From Opitutia bacterium (GTDB lineage: Bacteria > Verrucomicrobiota > Verrucomicrobiia > Opitutales > Opitutaceae): DNA of 64,000 nucleotides. The notes beneath the pieces are model-generated. The model saw only the letters and a list, made by a program, of their open reading frames with translations. It was not told the DNA's origin and ran no database searches. Below are positions 40,132-47,181 of the stretch, piece after piece. Both the position numbers and the translations under genes were made by a program. The stretch spans positions 310,001-374,000 of the forward strand of contig JACPIT010000005.1 in assembly GCA_016187945.1 (NCBI GenBank). The letters run 5' to 3'. The first letter of the stretch is position 1. Every line of letters begins with the position of its first letter.

Positions 40132-40473
40132 CTAGGTTTCGGCGGAGAGCACGGCGTCGACGAGCGCGGTGACGCGCTGCCAGTTGGCGACCTCTTCCTT
40201 GAGCTGCTTTCGGCCGGCCGCGGTGATCGAGTAGAAGCGCGCGCGGCGGTTGTTGTCGCTCGTGCCCCACTCCGAGGAAATCCAGCCCTGCTCCTCGAGC
40301 CGGACGAGCGCCGGGTAGATCGTGCCTTGGTTGAGGAGCACGGAGCCGCCCGAAACCTGCTCGATCCGCCGCGCGATGCCGAAACCGTGCAGCGCCCCGA
40401 GCGTCGCGAGGGTTTTCAGGACGAGCAGATCGAGAGTGCCCTGGAGAAGTTCGGTGCGGTCGGCGTCGCTCAT
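40132..40473 (-). CDS. PadR-family transcriptional regulator
   Basis: 113 residues. Winged helix typical of short PadR proteins: ELLQGTLDLLVLKTLATLG, the recognition region GSVLLNQGTIYPALVRLEEQ, wing SSEWGTSDNNRRARFYSIT, and the dimer helix GRKQLKEEVANWQRVTALVD. Such genes commonly head ADOP permease operons and autorepress. An inverted repeat at 40483-40500 lies 10 nt before the start codon. Confidence 0.9.
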   Translation of the reverse strand: MSDADRTELLQGTLDLLVLKTLATLGALHGFGIARRIEQVSGGSVLLNQGTIYPALVRLEEQGWISSEWGTSDNNRRARFYSITAAGRKQLKEEVANWQRVTALVDAVLSAET

Positions 40474-40482
40474 GTTGGAAGT

Positions 40483-40500
40483 CAACAGGTGTTCCTGTTG
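40483..40500. promoter_or_regulatory. Putative PadR operator
   Basis: caacagg (40483-40489) and cctgttg (40494-40500) are perfect inverses around tgtt. Flanked by further gttg/caac half-sites at 40474 and 40505. Confidence 0.6.
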
Positions 40501-40734
40501 AAAGTCAACACGAGCCGCGGTGGCCGGTCGGCCGAGGGGCATCCGAATGCCCGCACCGCCAATCCCGGTTTGACCGCCCGCAACCCACCGCCCAGCCTCG
40601 CGAGCATCACGGGCCCGTTTTGATCCAGCCGTTTCCACGCAGAGAGACGGCGAGCATACCCTTTTGCCCCGATTGAAAGCGGCCTCGTCAAACTCGCGCC
40701 CACTAGAAATGCAACCGGCGGCGGTTGTGCCGCC

Positions 40735-40865
40735 GTGTGAAAACATTTCGGCGGCACCTTGCGATGCCGCCGAAAAAGAAGCGCTGTTGACCACGGTGTG
40801 TCCGCTTGGCGGACAGTGAAACGGGCTGCGCTCACTGACTTTGACTTGATTCCGCCGACACCGAA
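40735..40865 (-). ncRNA. tracrRNA of the type II-C CRISPR locus, antisense to cas9
   Basis: The anti-repeat is at 40839-40853. Read on the minus strand, ggaatcaagtcaaag pairs with 14 of 15 bases of the repeat's first part (ctttgccttgattcc on the minus strand). Downstream on the same strand come hairpins: cagtga/tcactg (40814-40837), a perfect 7-bp tgtccgc/gcggaca (40799-40815), and an 11-bp hairpin (40746-40775). The order anti-repeat then hairpins is that of type II tracrRNA. Its 5' end is not defined. It lies in the 405-bp gap between padR and cas9. Confidence 0.8.
40739..40775 (-). terminator. Terminator hairpin of the tracrRNA
   Basis: tttcggcggca (40746-40756) and tgccgccgaaa (40765-40775) are perfect 11-bp arms. 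On the minus strand TGTTTTC follows. No T-run follows on the plus strand, consistent with minus-strand transcription. Confidence 0.65.
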
Positions 40866-40878
40866 CCCGCCTTAAGAA

Positions 40879-43800
40879 ATGACCGCAAGCACGAACTCGC
40901 CTCGCCTCGAACTCGCTCTCGACATCGGCCACAGCTCCATCGGCTGGGCCGTGCTCTCCACTCCCGATGTCGCACAACCGAACCTGCTCGGCTGCGGCAC
41001 CGTCATTTTCGAAAAAGACAGCGCCCTCGCCAACACTCGCCGCCTGCACCGCTCTCAACGTCGACACGTTCGGGCCACGCGCCAGCGCATCGCGCGCATG
41101 GAAAAGTTGCTCGCCCACCTCGGCGTGTTCACCGAGTCGGAGTTGAAGAGCAAGCACGTCGCCAACGGCGGCCACCCCACGCCTTGGTTGCTCGCCGCCC
41201 GCGTCCTCGCGACCGATGGCCAACAAACGCTCACCTGGCCCGAGCTTTGGGACGTGCTCCGCTGGTATGCCCACAATCGAGGCTATGAGGAAATCTCCGG
41301 CGAGACACGCGCCCCCGACGAAGCGGAATCCGACGACAAGAAGAAGGACGCCGAGAAAGTGGCCAACGCCAAGGCCGCCCTCGCGAGGTTCGGCAAATCC
41401 ACGATGGCTGAGACCATCTGCGCATGGCTCGGACAAGACGCGTTGGCACTGCGCGCTGGAACCACCGCCAGCTACAAGGCGAACAACTGCGCGTTCGACC
41501 GGGAGAAAGTTGTTGTTCCTGAAGTCGCGCGCATCCTCGCCGCACACCGAGGCAAGCTGCCCCATGTGGACGAAGCGCTCATTGCCGCGCTCACGCTCGA
41601 TGCCCGCGCGATCAACGTGCCCACCATCAAACTGCCCAAGCGCTTCGACTCCGGCCCGAGTCGGACCAGCGGTCTCCTCTTCGGGCGACTCGCGACGCGC
41701 TATCACAACCGCATCATCGGCATCTGCCCCATTTCCGTTCCCGAGCGAAAGCTCCCGAACAAAAACTGCCCGGAGTTTCTCCGCTACCGCTGGGCGATGA
41801 ATTTGAGAAAAATCTCGGTGGCGAAATCCATCGAAGAGAAACTACGCACGCTGACACCGGACGAAATCGATGTCCTGACCAAGCGAATGAAGGAAGAGGG
41901 GCGAATGACATCCAAGGAGTTCATCAAGGCTGCACGAGAACTCGGGGGCTTCGTCCGCGATAACCTTGAACAGACCTTCATGGAGGCGACGGCGGATGAC
42001 GATCTGGTGTTTGACCCGATTCAGGCACTGGCAAAACGACACAAATATCTCTCCACCGTCTGGCCGCACCTGCCTCCCGCGTTGCAAGCGCGCACGCGCG
42101 GCCGCTTGCGCCGGGGAAAACCGACCTCTCTCGCACGTCTCCGCGAAGAAGCCGTGAAGCTCGGTCACGACTGCGCGGCATTCGACGCCGCCGTCGATGC
42201 GCTGTGCGCACCACCCGCGAAAAAATCCAAGCGGCAAACGCCGCCACCGACGCGCGACGAAGTGCTTGGGGCAGTCATCGACGCGAAGCGCGAACTCGCC
42301 AAGCTCTCCGGCCGCGCGCCCTACGCGCGCCCACTGCTGGCGAAAGCGTTCGACGAGGTCATGGCCGGCCGCGACCCCAAGGCGACAGGTGGTTGCCTGG
42401 AGGAGACCGACGAGGTCCGCCGCCGCCGCGAGGCGCGCTCCATCGCCAACCAGACCAATAACCACCTGCTCCGCCACCGACTGCAAATCCTCAGCCGCCT
42501 GCTCGCCGATCTCGTGGCCGACCCCGCCTACGGCGCAGGCGACGAGCAGCGCTTCACCCAAATCACCGTCGAGGTGAACCGCGAGCTGCGGGACATGGCC
42601 GGCTTGTCCGCTCAGGACATCGCCAAGGAGCTTGGGCAGCGTCTAAAACAGCACGGCGACGCCGTGAAATGGCTGGAACAAGACCCACAGGTCGCGCCGA
42701 AAATCGGTGCCGGCCTCATCCGCAAGGCCCGTGTCGCCCTCGATCTCGGCAAGCGCTGCCCCTACACCGGCGAGGAATTCAGCCCCATCGATCTCGTCAC
42801 CAAGCGCGTCGACCTCGACCACATCATCCCGCGTTCACAGCGCGCGTCCGACTCACTCGATTCGCTCGCTCTGACTTTCTCCGCCGTCAACAAGTGGAAG
42901 AAAGACCGCACCGCGTGGCAGTTCATCCAACAGGAAGGGGGCAAGCCAGTGCCCGACGCGCCCAACCTCTCCATCATGACGCCAGCGCGGTTCAAGGCGC
43001 ACGTCGAGTCGCTCGACACCAAAGGCCACCTCGACGACTACCGGCGCAAAAAGCGCCGGAAGGAATTCCTTTTGCTCGAAGCCTACGAGGAGAAAGCCCG
43101 CACCTTCACCCCCGGCCAACTCACCCAAACTTCGCAGCTCGCGCGACTCGGTGCACAGACTGTCCGCCAGGTGTTGCCGCACCTGGAGCCGCACCACCTC
43201 GTCGCGTTGCCCGGCTCTGTGACGGGCGCGGTGCGCAAGGCCTGGGACGTGCTCGGCTGCCTCGCCACCGCCGCCCCCGGCGTGATGGAGAAGGTGACGC
43301 TGCCCGACGGCACCGAGAAGAACGAGGTCCGCACCAAGACGGAAATCCGCGACATCACGCATCTGCACCACGCGCTCGACGCCTGCGTGCTGGCGCTCGC
43401 CGCGCACTTCATCCCCAATCGCGGAAACGTTTGGCGACTACTCGCCGAACGCCGTCTCAACTCTGCCCAGCAAGCCGAACTCGCCGCCCTCGACCTGCTC
43501 GATTTCGACGAGCGCGGCGGCTTCCGTCTCCGCGACCTCGGCTCGGGCCTGAAGGAGCAAATCCGCCAGCGCCTCGCCGAGCGCCGCGTCGTGCAGCATG
43601 TGCCAGCAGACATGAGCGGATTGAGAGTCGAGGAGAACACCCGTGGCGTGGTGAAACGCGAAGGCGGTTTCGTTCATCTTCGCCAGCAAAAGCGCAACGC
43701 CGACGGCAAACTCGTCGTGAATCACACGCGTGAGCCGGAGGGCAAGGTTGTCGGCCTGCCGCAATGCAGCGACGTGTCCGGCAAACTCGCGAAACTGAAC

Positions 43801-44196
43801 GGCGTGCGGGTAATCGCCGATAATTTTGGCGTAGCCATCTTGAAGGACGCCGCGCTCGACCCAGCTCTGCGATTCATCGTCATCCCCTACGAACGTGTGT
43901 GGCAGCGACTCGATGAACTTCGGGAGCGCAATGACGGTTCTCGCCCCCTTGTATTGCGCAACGGAATGCTAGTGGAGGTGCCTCGCGGACGATATCAGGG
44001 CCGCTGGATGGTTCGCGGGGTTCAGCTGAATCAGAAATCAGGCATGCTCGTGGACTTGAGTTACCCGGATTTCATCAACTACCGAGTGCCCGGCCGTTCT
44101 GAATCCAAACAGAATGTATCCTTGAATACTCTGGTGAAAGACGGCCTGCGCGTGCTTCGACCCCGCATGACCGCGAGCATCGATATGCAGCGCTGA
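40879..44196 (+). CDS. cas9: Cas9 endonuclease, type II-C
   Basis: 1105 residues, in the range of compact type II-C Cas9. RuvC-I LALDIGHSSIGW with D15, arginine-rich bridge helix (RRLHRSQRRHVRATRQRIAR) near 54, RuvC-II ITVEVNREL with E565, HNH domain CPYTGEEF...DLDHIIPRS with H648, and RuvC-III HLHHALDACVLA with H831 and D834. All nuclease residues expected for double-strand cutting are present, so it should be active. The last ~200 residues are the likely PAM-interacting part (GMLVEVPRGRYQGRWMVRG). First gene of cas9-cas1-cas2. cas1 follows 9 nt after the stop. PAM cannot be read from this window. Confidence 0.97.
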   Translation: MTASTNSPRLELALDIGHSSIGWAVLSTPDVAQPNLLGCGTVIFEKDSALANTRRLHRSQRRHVRATRQRIARMEKLLAHLGVFTESELKSKHVANGGHPTPWLLAARVLATDGQQTLTWPELWDVLRWYAHNRGYEEISGETRAPDEAESDDKKKDAEKVANAKAALARFGKSTMAETICAWLGQDALALRAGTTASYKANNCAFDREKVVVPEVARILAAHRGKLPHVDEALIAALTLDARAINVPTIKLPKRFDSGPSRTSGLLFGRLATRYHNRIIGICPISVPERKLPNKNCPEFLRYRWAMNLRKISVAKSIEEKLRTLTPDEIDVLTKRMKEEGRMTSKEFIKAARELGGFVRDNLEQTFMEATADDDLVFDPIQALAKRHKYLSTVWPHLPPALQARTRGRLRRGKPTSLARLREEAVKLGHDCAAFDAAVDALCAPPAKKSKRQTPPPTRDEVLGAVIDAKRELAKLSGRAPYARPLLAKAFDEVMAGRDPKATGGCLEETDEVRRRREARSIANQTNNHLLRHRLQILSRLLADLVADPAYGAGDEQRFTQITVEVNRELRDMAGLSAQDIAKELGQRLKQHGDAVKWLEQDPQVAPKIGAGLIRKARVALDLGKRCPYTGEEFSPIDLVTKRVDLDHIIPRSQRASDSLDSLALTFSAVNKWKKDRTAWQFIQQEGGKPVPDAPNLSIMTPARFKAHVESLDTKGHLDDYRRKKRRKEFLLLEAYEEKARTFTPGQLTQTSQLARLGAQTVRQVLPHLEPHHLVALPGSVTGAVRKAWDVLGCLATAAPGVMEKVTLPDGTEKNEVRTKTEIRDITHLHHALDACVLALAAHFIPNRGNVWRLLAERRLNSAQQAELAALDLLDFDERGGFRLRDLGSGLKEQIRQRLAERRVVQHVPADMSGLRVEENTRGVVKREGGFVHLRQQKRNADGKLVVNHTREPEGKVVGLPQCSDVSGKLAKLNGVRVIADNFGVAILKDAALDPALRFIVIPYERVWQRLDELRERNDGSRPLVLRNGMLVEVPRGRYQGRWMVRGVQLNQKSGMLVDLSYPDFINYRVPGRSESKQNVSLNTLVKDGLRVLRPRMTASIDMQR

Positions 44197-44205
44197 AACT
44201 CCCCC

Positions 44206-45132
44206 GTGTCCTACCACATCGTCAGCATCGACTCGCCCCAGGCCGATCTGACGTGCCGGGACGGGCAACTCGTTTCCACCGACGACAAGGGCACGAAACG
44301 TCAACTACCGCTTGAAGACGTCGCCGCGATTGTCGTCACGAGTTTCTCCGCGCGCATCCACAGCCACCTCTTCCTCGAAGCGGCGAAGCACGGCGTGTCG
44401 CTCATCATCTGCGAGCGCTTCCAGCCCGTCAGCCTCCTGTTGCCCGCGTGCCGCTCGGCCGACACGCTGCTGACGCGCCGCCACCTCACGCTCGACGAAA
44501 AAGTGCGCCGCCGACTCTGGGAAAAGACGATCGACGCCAAATGCCTCAACCAAGCCGCGGTTGCCGGGCTCGTCGCGCCAAAGAGCGATGCCACACGCGA
44601 ACTCGCCCGCGCCGCCCAGGCGCGCACCGCACGCAAGGAGGGCGGTTGCGCGAAGTTGTTCTGGGATGCGCTGACCGTGGGGCTGCGCATCGAGGGCTTC
44701 GCACGCGGTCGAAAACTCGGCGGCTTGAACGACCTCCTCAACTACGGCTACGCCGTGCTGCTCTCGACCGTGCTTCAAAAACTCTACGGATTCGGACTCG
44801 ATCCGACGGTCGGTATTTCGCACGCCATCCGCGAACGCAGTGCGCCGCTCGCCTACGATTTGATGGAGCCGTTTCGCCCCTGCGTGGATTGGCGCGTCTA
44901 TCAATGGGTGAAGGATCGCCCGCACGAGGAAGCCTTCGTCGTCAGCGGAGAATTTCGCCGCTGGGTGACCGGCTTCGCCGTGCAACGCGTCGATTATCTC
45001 GGACTCGATCTCGATATCCGCGGCGTGATCGAGGGCGACGTGCGCTCCTTCCGTCAAGCGGTGCTCAACGGCTCCGCGCGACACTACCGGCCATGGATGT
45101 GGAAAAATTCAAAATGGGCTGGCTGGTCGTAG
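44206..45132 (+). CDS. cas1: Cas1 integrase, type II
   Basis: 308 residues from GTG 44206. N-terminal beta domain, then the alpha-helical catalytic domain with E145 (ARKEGGCAKLFW), H206 (GISHA) and acidic residues in YDLMEPFRP (D218, E221). These are the metal ligands of the Cas1 integrase that inserts spacers. Lies 9 nt after cas9, and cas2 begins inside its 3' end. No Csn2 or Cas4 is present, which with gene order supports type II-C. Confidence 0.95.
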   Translation: MSYHIVSIDSPQADLTCRDGQLVSTDDKGTKRQLPLEDVAAIVVTSFSARIHSHLFLEAAKHGVSLIICERFQPVSLLLPACRSADTLLTRRHLTLDEKVRRRLWEKTIDAKCLNQAAVAGLVAPKSDATRELARAAQARTARKEGGCAKLFWDALTVGLRIEGFARGRKLGGLNDLLNYGYAVLLSTVLQKLYGFGLDPTVGISHAIRERSAPLAYDLMEPFRPCVDWRVYQWVKDRPHEEAFVVSGEFRRWVTGFAVQRVDYLGLDLDIRGVIEGDVRSFRQAVLNGSARHYRPWMWKNSKWAGWS

Positions 45133-45428
45133 CCTTCGACCTGCCGGTGCTCACGCCGAAGCAGCGCAAGGAGGCGACCGGTTTCCGGAAATTCCTCCTC
45201 GATGACGGATTTCAGATGATCCAATTCAGCCTCTACGTGCGCCCGTGCGTGAGCTTTGCACGGCAGCAGACGCACCTCGAGCGGGTGAAGCAGGGCATCC
45301 CACCGGAAGGAAAGGTGCGGGCCTTCTACGTGACACGAGCGCAGTGGGAACGAGCCTACGTGATCTACGGAAGTCCGGCCCAAGAGGTGCCTCCAGAAGA
45401 CATGCCGGAACAAATTCAGCTATGGTAG
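45093..45428 (+). CDS. cas2: Cas2 adaptation protein
   Basis: 111 residues from ATG 45093, which overlaps cas1 by 40 bp. ATG 45114 (MGWLVVAFDLPVLTPKQRKE) would give 104 residues and is about as likely. The beta1 strand ends with the family Asp (VAFDLP), followed by YVRPC and a C-terminal EQIQLW. Dimer forms the core of the Cas1-Cas2 integration complex. Its TAG stop overlaps the U-tract of the terminator that ends the opposite-strand crRNA transcript. Confidence 0.93.
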   Translation: MDVEKFKMGWLVVAFDLPVLTPKQRKEATGFRKFLLDDGFQMIQFSLYVRPCVSFARQQTHLERVKQGIPPEGKVRAFYVTRAQWERAYVIYGSPAQEVPPEDMPEQIQLW

Positions 45429-45460
45429 AAAAGCAGAAGGCCCTCGCAAGGAGGGCCTTC
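45428..45460 (-). terminator. Terminator of the minus-strand pre-crRNA
   Basis: gaaggccctc (45436-45445) and gagggccttc (45451-45460) form a 10-bp hairpin. On the minus strand it is followed by TGCTTTTCTA, a U-tract. On the plus strand no T-run follows. It lies between cas2 and the first repeat. Confidence 0.7.
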
Positions 45461-45469
45461 GCTTCGGCG

Positions 45470-46243
45470 GATCGTCTCCGCCGCGGATTTGGAATCAAGG
45501 CAAAGCTTGACCGTTTGCTTCTTCAATTCCTTCAGCGATCGTCTCCGCCGCGGATTTGGAATCAAGGCAAAGCTGTGCGGATCGTGGCTTGCGCCTGTTT
45601 TTCGATCGTCTCCGCCGCGGATTTGGAATCAAGGCAAAGCGCGTCGTCCGCAGGGCCATCGGCAAGGAAAGATCGTCTCCGCCGCGGATTTGGAATCAAG
45701 GCAAAGCGATCCGCTCCACCGGGTTCTCGCTGATCAGGATCGTCTCCGCCGCGGATTTGGAATCAAGGCAAAGCCGGGCTCGTCGTCTCGATGACGCGCG
45801 AAGAGATCGTCTCCGCCGCGGATTTGGAATCAAGGCAAAGCCGCCAAGTGGTAGGTGGCAAAACTGTGTCGGATCGTCTCCGCCGCGGATTTGGAATCAA
45901 GGCAAAGCACATCGACGGTGACACCGACGCCCCCGACTGATCGTCTCCGCCGCGGATTTGGAATCAAGGCAAAGCGCGATGGCGCCCGGCGTGGAGATCG
46001 GCAACGATCGTCTCCGCCGCGGATTTGGAATCAAGGCAAAGCAGTGGCCGCGCGTGGCGCAGGCGCGCCGCGGATCGTCTCCGCCGCGGATTTGGAATCA
46101 AGGCAAAGCCGGACTCTTTGCGCGGACCGCCACCGAGGCGATCGTCTCCGCCGCGGATTTGGAATCAAGGCAAAGCGGTTGGGCTCTCACACTTGCTAGC
46201 GTCGGTGATCGTCTCCGCCGCGGATTTGGAATCAAGGCAAAGC
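45470..46243 (-). CRISPR. CRISPR array: 12 identical repeats, 11 spacers of 30 nt
   Basis: Plus-strand unit begins GATCGTCTCC and ends AAGGCAAAGC, 37 nt. Starts at 45470, 45537, 45604, 45671, 45738, 45805, 45872, 45939, 46006, 46073, 46140 and 46207, an exact 67-bp period. All repeats look identical, so no degenerate end marks the distal side. Orientation is called minus from the anti-repeat (which pairs with GCTTTGCCTTGATTCC at the repeat 5' end) and from the terminator at the cas2 side. Spacers are all different and none matches other parts of the window that I could see. At the right end, the last repeat abuts the ric stop codon with no leader. Confidence 0.97.
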
Positions 46244-46975
46244 TCATCTGCCCGCGGCGCGGTCGAGGGCGCGGGGGAAGAGGATGTTGTTTTCCTTGTG
46301 CACGTGACGGTGCAGGTCGGACTCGAATTCTTCCAGGCCGCCGAGGAGGGCGCGGTGGGTGTTGCAGGCGTTTTCGTCGGGGCGGAAACCGTCGGTGAGT
46401 TCGCGCAGGCGCGCGACAGCGCGGCCGGCGAATTCGTGCTCGGCTTCCATCTGGCGGATCGGGTTGGCGATCGAACCGCAGTGAAACTCGTCCGGCGCGC
46501 CGCTATCGAGCTGGCGGACGATCGGGAAGAGCACGTTTTCCTCCTTCGCCATGTGGCTGAACATTTCGTGGGCGAGAATCGAGACGGTCTCGGCGACTTC
46601 CTTCAGGCGGTCGTCGCGCCAGGCGTGCTTGCGGGCGACGCGCTCGGCCATTTCGACGAGGCGGGGCAACTCGGCTTTCGTGTATTCGTGGTGCGTGCGC
46701 TCGATATGATCGGCGAGTTCGGTGAGCGAGAGCGTGGCGGGGTTGATGTCGTCGGTCCCGGGCGTGACGGCGAGGGCGGCGTCGATCAGCGCGAGCACGG
46801 TGGCGGGATCGAGGCCGCGGGCGGCGGCGAGTTCGGCGAGCGGTTTTTTGCCGCCGCAGCAGAAGTCGATGCCGAGTTTTTCGAAGAGGCGCGAGAGCGC
46901 GGGGCGGGCGGCGACCATTTCGCCGACGGTGGTTTGGATCGTGAAGGGAGCGGGAGACGTGGAGGAGGTGTTCAT
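46244..46975 (-). CDS. ric: Iron-sulfur cluster repair di-iron protein (Ric/ScdA/YtfE)
   Basis: 243 residues from ATG 46975 (MNTSSTSPAPF). N-terminal ScdA_N domain with the paired cysteines DFCCGGKKPL near 39-44. A haemerythrin-like four-helix domain follows with iron ligands in THHEYTKAELPRL, AHEMFSHMAKEENVLFP, EAEHEFAG and LHRHVHKENNILFP. Repairs Fe-S clusters damaged by nitric oxide or peroxide. Its TGA stop (46244-46246) directly follows the last CRISPR repeat, and both are read on the minus strand. A TTGA-N6-TCAA site upstream suggests CRP/FNR-type control. Confidence 0.93.
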   Translation of the reverse strand: MNTSSTSPAPFTIQTTVGEMVAARPALSRLFEKLGIDFCCGGKKPLAELAAARGLDPATVLALIDAALAVTPGTDDINPATLSLTELADHIERTHHEYTKAELPRLVEMAERVARKHAWRDDRLKEVAETVSILAHEMFSHMAKEENVLFPIVRQLDSGAPDEFHCGSIANPIRQMEAEHEFAGRAVARLRELTDGFRPDENACNTHRALLGGLEEFESDLHRHVHKENNILFPRALDRAAGR

Positions 46976-47012
46976 TGCGCCGGTAATGTAGCGAGGGGCG
47001 CGGCGCGACGCT

Positions 47013-47026
47013 TTGAGCTGGGTCAA
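47013..47026. promoter_or_regulatory. FNR/NnrR/DNR-type site upstream of ric
   Basis: ttgagctgggtcaa fits TTGA-N6-TCAA exactly and is centred ~44 bp before the ric ATG. Members of this regulator family control nitrosative-stress genes such as ric. No -10 was assigned. Confidence 0.5.
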
Positions 47027-47181
47027 GGGTTGCGCGGGTTCGCGTCGCCGGCGCGTGGCGCCGCCTGACGGTGGAAACCCTACCTGGCTGCGGGCGTTCC
47101 GGTGATGGCCTCCGGTCGGTTCGTCGGGACGACTCGTCCTACCCGTCTTTGCAAGACCGGCGCTGCGGCGCGGAGAGTTGC

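Follow-up and report, generated by a model that had tools for sequence, protein, structure and literature searches.

How a CRISPR (clustered regularly interspaced short palindromic repeats) array can be transcribed and extended when one of its ends touches the stop codon of a neighbouring gene is the question raised by a locus in a 64,000-nucleotide (nt) stretch of contig JACPIT010000005.1 from an Opitutia bacterium (Verrucomicrobiota, Opitutaceae). The whole stretch is called here the window; positions are given along it and its genome is designated G000. Between 45470 and 46243 the repeat GATCGTCTCCGCCGCGGATTTGGAATCAAGGCAAAGC recurs regularly every 67 nt in 12 perfect copies. The last-listed copy ends at 46243 and the TGA of ric, a gene of iron-sulfur cluster repair under nitric-oxide stress, occupies 46244-46246, with 0 nt between ric and the array and both on the minus strand. 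It had been predicted from the sequence that the array starts directly at this stop codon without an intervening leader, and the coordinates agree exactly. From this it had been concluded that the locus is devoid of its leader and that the CRISPR RNA (crRNA) may be transcribed by read-through from ric, from inside ric or from promoters within repeats. The explanation which we regard as highly probable is that of a type II-C locus with its old end at ric, acquisition of spacers at the cas2 side and promoters in the repeats, read-through from ric being possible and not required.

The absence of a leader at ric is less surprising when the polarity of this subtype is considered. In passages of PMC12080349, II-C systems are described as acquiring spacers at the last repeat, that is the cas2-side 3' end, and as having their own promoter in each repeat; because of these two properties no leader is expected at the ric side. 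The claim that the locus is without its leader is therefore not borne out, and the comparative signature agrees. An initial scan of contigs by Cas9 yielded no confirmed relative and was replaced by a search of genome contigs for pairs of consecutive repeats, which gave 77 loci, by their titles mostly of Verrucomicrobiota. Of seven family loci scanned, five carried such arrays, the exceptions being G049 and a cut-off contig of G090; these five, the 77 loci and the window formed 83 array pieces, or 79 after removal of 4 duplicates. Ends were used when flanked by at least 150 nt on the 5' side or at least 100 nt on the 3' side, ends at a record edge being excluded; repeats of less than 60% identity would escape detection on either side. 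At the crRNA-5' side, which in the window faces ric, 48 ends could be used, and 17 of them had a mutated first repeat; at the cas2 side a mutated last repeat was seen at 0 of 51 such ends. When the window was set aside, 42 first repeats with a length of 36 or 37 nt contained 63 mismatches (38 in positions 1-8, 7 in 9-14, 14 in 15-30, 3 in 31-36 and 1 in 37), and 642 inner repeats had 2 mismatches in positions 1-36. Because repeat decay in the relatives falls on that end only, the end corresponding to the ric-facing one is, judged by these sequences, the old end in the clade. The ric-facing side of the window array is thus most likely its oldest end, and acquisition in this species would take place at the cas2 side.

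At that side the array is separated from cas2 by 41 nt which are identical in the same-genus genome G047 and can be proposed as a leader. The denial of a leader consequently holds for the ric side but not for the array as a whole, this leader-like segment having been overlooked. The segment carries a strong terminator-like hairpin (Table 1), and the segment plus the terminal part of the last repeat has a folding energy of -37.8 kcal/mol (z -5.0). Two other terminator-like sites were found in 45400-47150, one inside the array on the minus strand (45930-45909) and one on the plus strand (45575-45594); three sites against 2.3 in shuffles are not significant as a count by itself. A more general pattern was seen in 43 arrays with distinct repeats, where the 3' half of the repeat was complementary to its own downstream flank over at least 7 nt in 16 arrays, compared with 6.4% of swapped pairs, and the sum of complementarity on the cas2 side was reached by 0 of 10000 permutations. 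On the 5' side the same was found in 2 of 43, against 2.9% of swapped pairs. Folding energies at the cas2 side were -25.9 with the own flank versus -19.3 with a swapped one (0 of 10000 permutations). Repeat-leader pairing at the cas2 side thus appears to co-vary between species; the window, with 5 nt of exact pairing, is a weak case. Strong examples of complementarity between last repeat and leader are the loci L080, L084, L144 and L100.

The cas2-side hairpin may be a terminator or an integration hairpin, re-formed with each new last repeat; a T-rich tail is absent from some of the hairpins that span the last repeat and the flank. New spacers would enter beside the 41-nt leader next to cas2, the same leader would hold the likely terminator of the crRNA transcript, and transcription would stop at the hairpin before cas2. 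The placing of the leader resembles that of the II-C system of Riemerella anatipestifer, in which new units are inserted at the cas2-side end according to the part of PMC6008519 concerned; there the leader is called A/T-rich, whereas that of the window is dominated by a G+C-rich hairpin. When the literature was searched for terminators to which the last repeat of a II-C array contributes, PMC12080349 and PMC13187072 were the only apparently relevant papers among those listed.

The assignment to type II-C rests on gene content. The cas9 product has HNH and RuvC domains by Pfam and is also identified by NCBIfam, and between the flanking padR and ric the interval 40879-45428 is filled by cas9, cas1 and cas2 only, with neither csn2 nor cas4. 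A trans-activating crRNA (tracrRNA) with anti-repeat and terminator is predicted on the minus strand between cas9 and padR, a layout alike in most relatives scanned: GGAATCAAGTCAAAG is complementary to positions 2-16 of the minus-strand repeat with one mismatch and is followed by a strong terminal hairpin. The locus can be classified on this basis as a type II-C CRISPR-Cas9 system. The anti-repeat GGAATCAAGNCAAAG, allowing for up to 2 mismatches, was found outside the array and in tracrRNA sense in 8 of 10 loci scanned, two copies being present in G047; it was absent from G049, which has no cas9, and from G060. Because of this anchored anti-repeat the minus-strand direction of the crRNA, which the original prediction had indicated, is likely. 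Duplex energy as a proof of orientation was dropped in its favour as not distinctive. In two loci, L063 and L064 (G105 and G052), the space between array and cas2 holds a long anti-repeat and, after it, a stretch resembling a hairpin, probably the tracrRNA of that different II-C lineage. As described in parts of PMC3656092 and PMC13187072, the II-C systems of Campylobacter jejuni (PMC3656092) and Neisseria meningitidis likewise consist of cas9-cas1-cas2 only and have a tracrRNA that pairs with the repeat.

How the array may have come to lie against ric is illustrated by the genus itself. The first 22 nt of the repeat are present in 2 of its 13 genomes, 12 times in the window genome (all in the array) and 10 times in G047, where the gene order is the same as in the window: padR, then tracrRNA-cas9-cas1-cas2-array, then ric and ilvA. 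The DNA identity between the two is 85.4% for ric, 89.5% for cas1, 91.6% for cas2 and 100% for the 41 nt between array and cas2; the proteins are 96% (Cas1), 97% (Cas2) and about 52-57% (Cas9) identical. In G047 the ric stop is followed by 42 nt and then by the first repeat, which differs at 6 positions at the 5' end and closes a hairpin with the preceding DNA (z -2.3, 4 of 200 shuffles as good). A relative with a leader between ric and the array had been named in advance as an observation that would speak against the original prediction; G047 does have a stretch there, but with the decayed repeat it forms a hairpin and is not leader-like. G049 offers an empty site, since neither Cas genes nor an array separate its ric from the padR that follows. 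The simplest history would be one II-C insertion between padR and ric in an ancestor before G000 and G047 split. In the window species the decayed first repeat and the 42 nt would then have been lost, probably by deletion, and a perfect repeat would have been left against the ric stop. The window ric ends about one residue earlier than that of G047 and G049; the endpoints of such a deletion are not fixable, as the ric 3' end is alignable two ways by eye. The divergence of Cas9 in G047 has its own aspect: at L051:13300-13740 a second anti-repeat lies beside the present cas9 start, and the opposite strand reads by eye as another cas9 start (MSLSLDIGHGSIGW). Since Cas1 and Cas2 next to it are 96-97% identical, this looks like a replacement of cas9 together with its tracrRNA.

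The junction with ric is one case of the erosion of old ends into neighbouring genes. Array ends preceded by 300 nt or more of sequence numbered 46, that of the window among them, and part of their candidate open reading frames (ORFs) were compared with protein families; in this sample a co-directional gene was found to end within about 50 nt of the array in G047 (ric, -42), G072 (DUF481 protein, -13) and L072 (sulfatase, -36). Further close co-directional genes encode a TIM-barrel protein in L096 (-40), an epimerase in L105 (-34), an AraC-type regulator in L129 (-50) and a UbiA protein in L134 (-51). The upstream gene of three relatives lacks a stop codon ahead of the array; its reading frame continues into the first repeat and is closed by the TGA inside that repeat (GCT TTG CCT TGA or a decayed form). 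These are a sulfatase (L118:6597), a PEP-CTERM domain protein of Cerasicoccus maritimus (L102:6749, TIGR02595 just above cut-off) and a GH43-like protein of Pelagicoccus (L057, array on the minus strand, below the Pfam cut-off). An ORF of L087 was considered as a fourth overlapping gene and was not counted, having no Pfam or NCBIfam match. Among the papers listed in a literature search, none dealt by its title with arrays overlapping an upstream gene. Judged by this search and that for terminators alone, these overlaps and the cas2-side hairpin, side points of the present analysis, are possibly unreported, and they are more interesting than the junction itself. A wider proposal, which we consider rather unlikely, is that deletions can fuse a II-C old end to a host gene, as this end needs no leader; the array would become the 3' untranslated region of the gene and inherit its regulation, in the case of ric as a nitric-oxide- or anoxia-inducible crRNA layer. 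The repeat of the clade is also seen in records named outside Verrucomicrobiota, L082 (a Klebsiella pneumoniae metagenome-assembled genome, MAG) and L071 (a Desulfocapsa MAG), which are probably mislabelled or misbinned contigs.

According to the relevant part of PMC3656092, transcription of every crRNA in Campylobacter jejuni begins at a promoter which the preceding repeat supplies. Promoters within repeats, one of the options of the original prediction, can be taken as the default of II-C systems. In all 51 distinct repeat consensus strings (36 or 37 nt, two of them, L073 and L131, from one contig) the best sigma-70-like arrangement lies at one place: TTGAWT occupies positions 9-14, and after a gap of 16 nt a second hexamer occupies 31-36; TTGAWT is near-constant, so this common position is partly built in. 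Of the 42 distinct repeats with 36 nt, 41 have A at position 32, all 42 have T at position 36 and 37 have A at position 34, whereas positions 20-29 vary. This conservation could alternatively be due to constraints which the integrase imposes on the end of the repeat. The window repeat keeps A32 and T36 with the arrangement TTGATT, 16 nt, GACGAT, and a working promoter in it is favoured, though by no means assured. The crRNAs would start from these weak promoters, and their trimming would involve the tracrRNA of the minus strand and RNase III. In the parts of PMC3656092 and PMC13187072 mentioned above, the C. jejuni and N. meningitidis systems similarly show a -10-like hexamer at the repeat 3' end and need no promoter-bearing 5' leader; the window differs from them in its 37-nt repeat, its weaker hexamer and a perfect first repeat that touches a stop codon. 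The family repeats of G000, G047, G072, G172 and G060 are all 37 nt long with an extra terminal C, and they have lower promoter scores than most 36-nt repeats of other Verrucomicrobiota.

Several observations weigh against the explanation preferred here. As 12 of 12 window repeats are perfect, the array itself does not mark its old end, and PMC12638026, which in the part concerned also reports 3'-end acquisition in II-C systems, warns of possible subgroups that differ in their acquisition end. Polarity is not directly visible: among 79 array pieces with 732 spacers no spacer was shared between different arrays, and with 4 pairs only within single arrays this test was given up. Orientation by the protospacer adjacent motif was likewise dropped because no protospacer was found, a distant search of the array against phages giving 8 weak records (best E 0.2) and exact matches in viral contigs being absent for the 4 spacers (of 11) whose last 20-21 nt at the 3' side were searched. 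The -10 hexamer GACGAT matches TATAAT at 3 of 6 positions, which is poor, and a consensus scan of 45400-47150 gave 0 promoter-like sites at threshold; the site 45930-45909 within the array could shorten a long transcript. G060 possesses cas9 and an array but no anti-repeat in the scan, and the repeat:tracrRNA duplex of -32.2 kcal/mol is exceeded by the best of 398 random windows of GC-rich DNA (-45.7).

It remains to consider what ric may contribute. Its product scores 223.3 bits against TIGR03652 FeS_repair_RIC (cut-off 204.7), and ric was found in 65 of 252 family genomes. The site TTGACCCAGCTCAA predicted upstream of the gene is present, and its motif TTGA-N6-TCAA, which we take to be of the FNR/DNR type, recurs upstream of 29 of the 30 best-matching ric loci, starting 42-76 nt before the aligned start (the exception is L044). 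As 28 of these 30 loci have no match to the window Cas9 on the ric contig, the motif belongs to ric and not to the CRISPR locus. The scan of 45400-47150 revealed no terminator-like site from the ric start as far as the first spacer, shuffled sequences fold as well as the window ric end (z -0.7), and a consensus terminator (stem of at least 6) within 130 nt past the ric stop occurs in 1 of the 30 loci, compared with 0.4 in shuffles. The idea that the window species has lost a ric terminator, prompted by strong hairpins after the G049 ric, was rejected as a general claim with this count, the lack of intrinsic termination being no peculiarity of the window species.

With no terminator-like site separating ric from the array, the read-through of the original prediction is possible, and with it a nitric-oxide or low-oxygen control of immunity; this regulatory idea is not needed. 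As the main source of the transcript, with an FNR/DNR-type regulator tying immunity to nitric oxide or low oxygen, read-through is improbable. The contact of two co-directional elements, the conserved motif and the weak repeat promoter speak for it; it is a candidate drawn from sequence, the A and T of the -10 hexamer are conserved in almost every repeat of the clade, and the site at 45930-45909 would limit a long read-through transcript. Moreover, ric is not a conserved partner, for arrays of the same clade end beside sulfatases, a DUF481 protein, a PEP-CTERM protein and an epimerase, and among 18 loci compared ric adjoins the array only in G047, where the hairpin and the decayed repeat intervene.

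A combination of both sources, with basal crRNA from the repeat promoters and an inducible increment from ric, is a tentative possibility that shares the same favourable points. Read-through may add crRNA in this way and would also yield an extraneous crRNA with a guide derived from the ric 3' end. Of the three devices that silence extraneous II-C crRNA in the sections of PMC12080349 concerned, G047 shows two, the first repeat mutated at its 5' end and the junction hairpin; at the window array none was detected, because the first repeat shows 0 mismatches over its 37 nt and the ric end has neither a terminator-like site nor unusual folding. Nevertheless, about a quarter of II-C systems are likewise unexplained by such devices in the same source, and Rho-dependent termination after ric would be invisible in sequence. 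Finally, the ric end could be imagined as an acquisition end whose leader was deleted and whose array was frozen. The lack of a leader there and the uniform repeats, with decay marking neither end in the window species, would fit, but the one-sided decay in relatives (17/48 versus 0/51), the conserved flank at the cas2 end and the published II-C polarity make it very hard to believe. The II-C locus with its old end at ric and repeat promoters is therefore kept as the preferred explanation.

Table 1. Features of the CRISPR-Cas locus and its neighbours (positions in the window)
Feature	Position	Strand	Remarks
Type II-C CRISPR array	45470..46243	- (crRNA sense)	12 identical 37-nt repeats, eleven 30-nt spacers
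First ("extra", putatively oldest) repeat	46207..46243	-	perfect copy, 0/37 mismatches, directly 3' of ric stop
ric TGA stop codon	46244..46246	-	sequence
ric (iron-sulfur cluster repair di-iron protein, YtfE/ScdA family)	46244..46975	-	Pfam ScdA_N + Hemerythrin; TIGR03652
FNR/DNR-like site TTGACCCAGCTCAA	47013..47026	-	upstream of ric
Putative acquisition-side leader, 41 nt between array and cas2	45429..45469	-	strong hairpin; identical in G047
Terminator-like hairpin, GAAGGCCCTCCTTGCGAGGGCCTTC then TGCTTTTCTA	45436..45460	- sense	10 pairs
cas2	45093..45428	+	Pfam CRISPR_Cas2; start codon by eye from sequence
cas1 (type II, NMENI-type)	44206..45132	+	Pfam; TIGR03639 above cut-off
cas9 (1105 aa)	40879..44196	+	Pfam HNH_4, RuvC_III; TIGR01865 202.9 bits (cut-off 100)
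tracrRNA candidate	40746..40865	-	anti-repeat GGAATCAAGTCAAAG 40839-40853; terminal hairpin ~40746-40775
padR	within 40132-40623		flanks locus on cas9/tracrRNA side

It can be said that a correct observation, the absence of a leader at one end, can mislead where the polarity of the subtype is reversed. Should read-through from ric be shown, the locus would be a tangible example in which CRISPR immunity has taken over the stress promoter of a neighbouring gene. For the II-C arrays of Verrucomicrobiota the comparative picture is that of an old end free to erode into neighbouring genes and of a cas2-side end which keeps a short leader.
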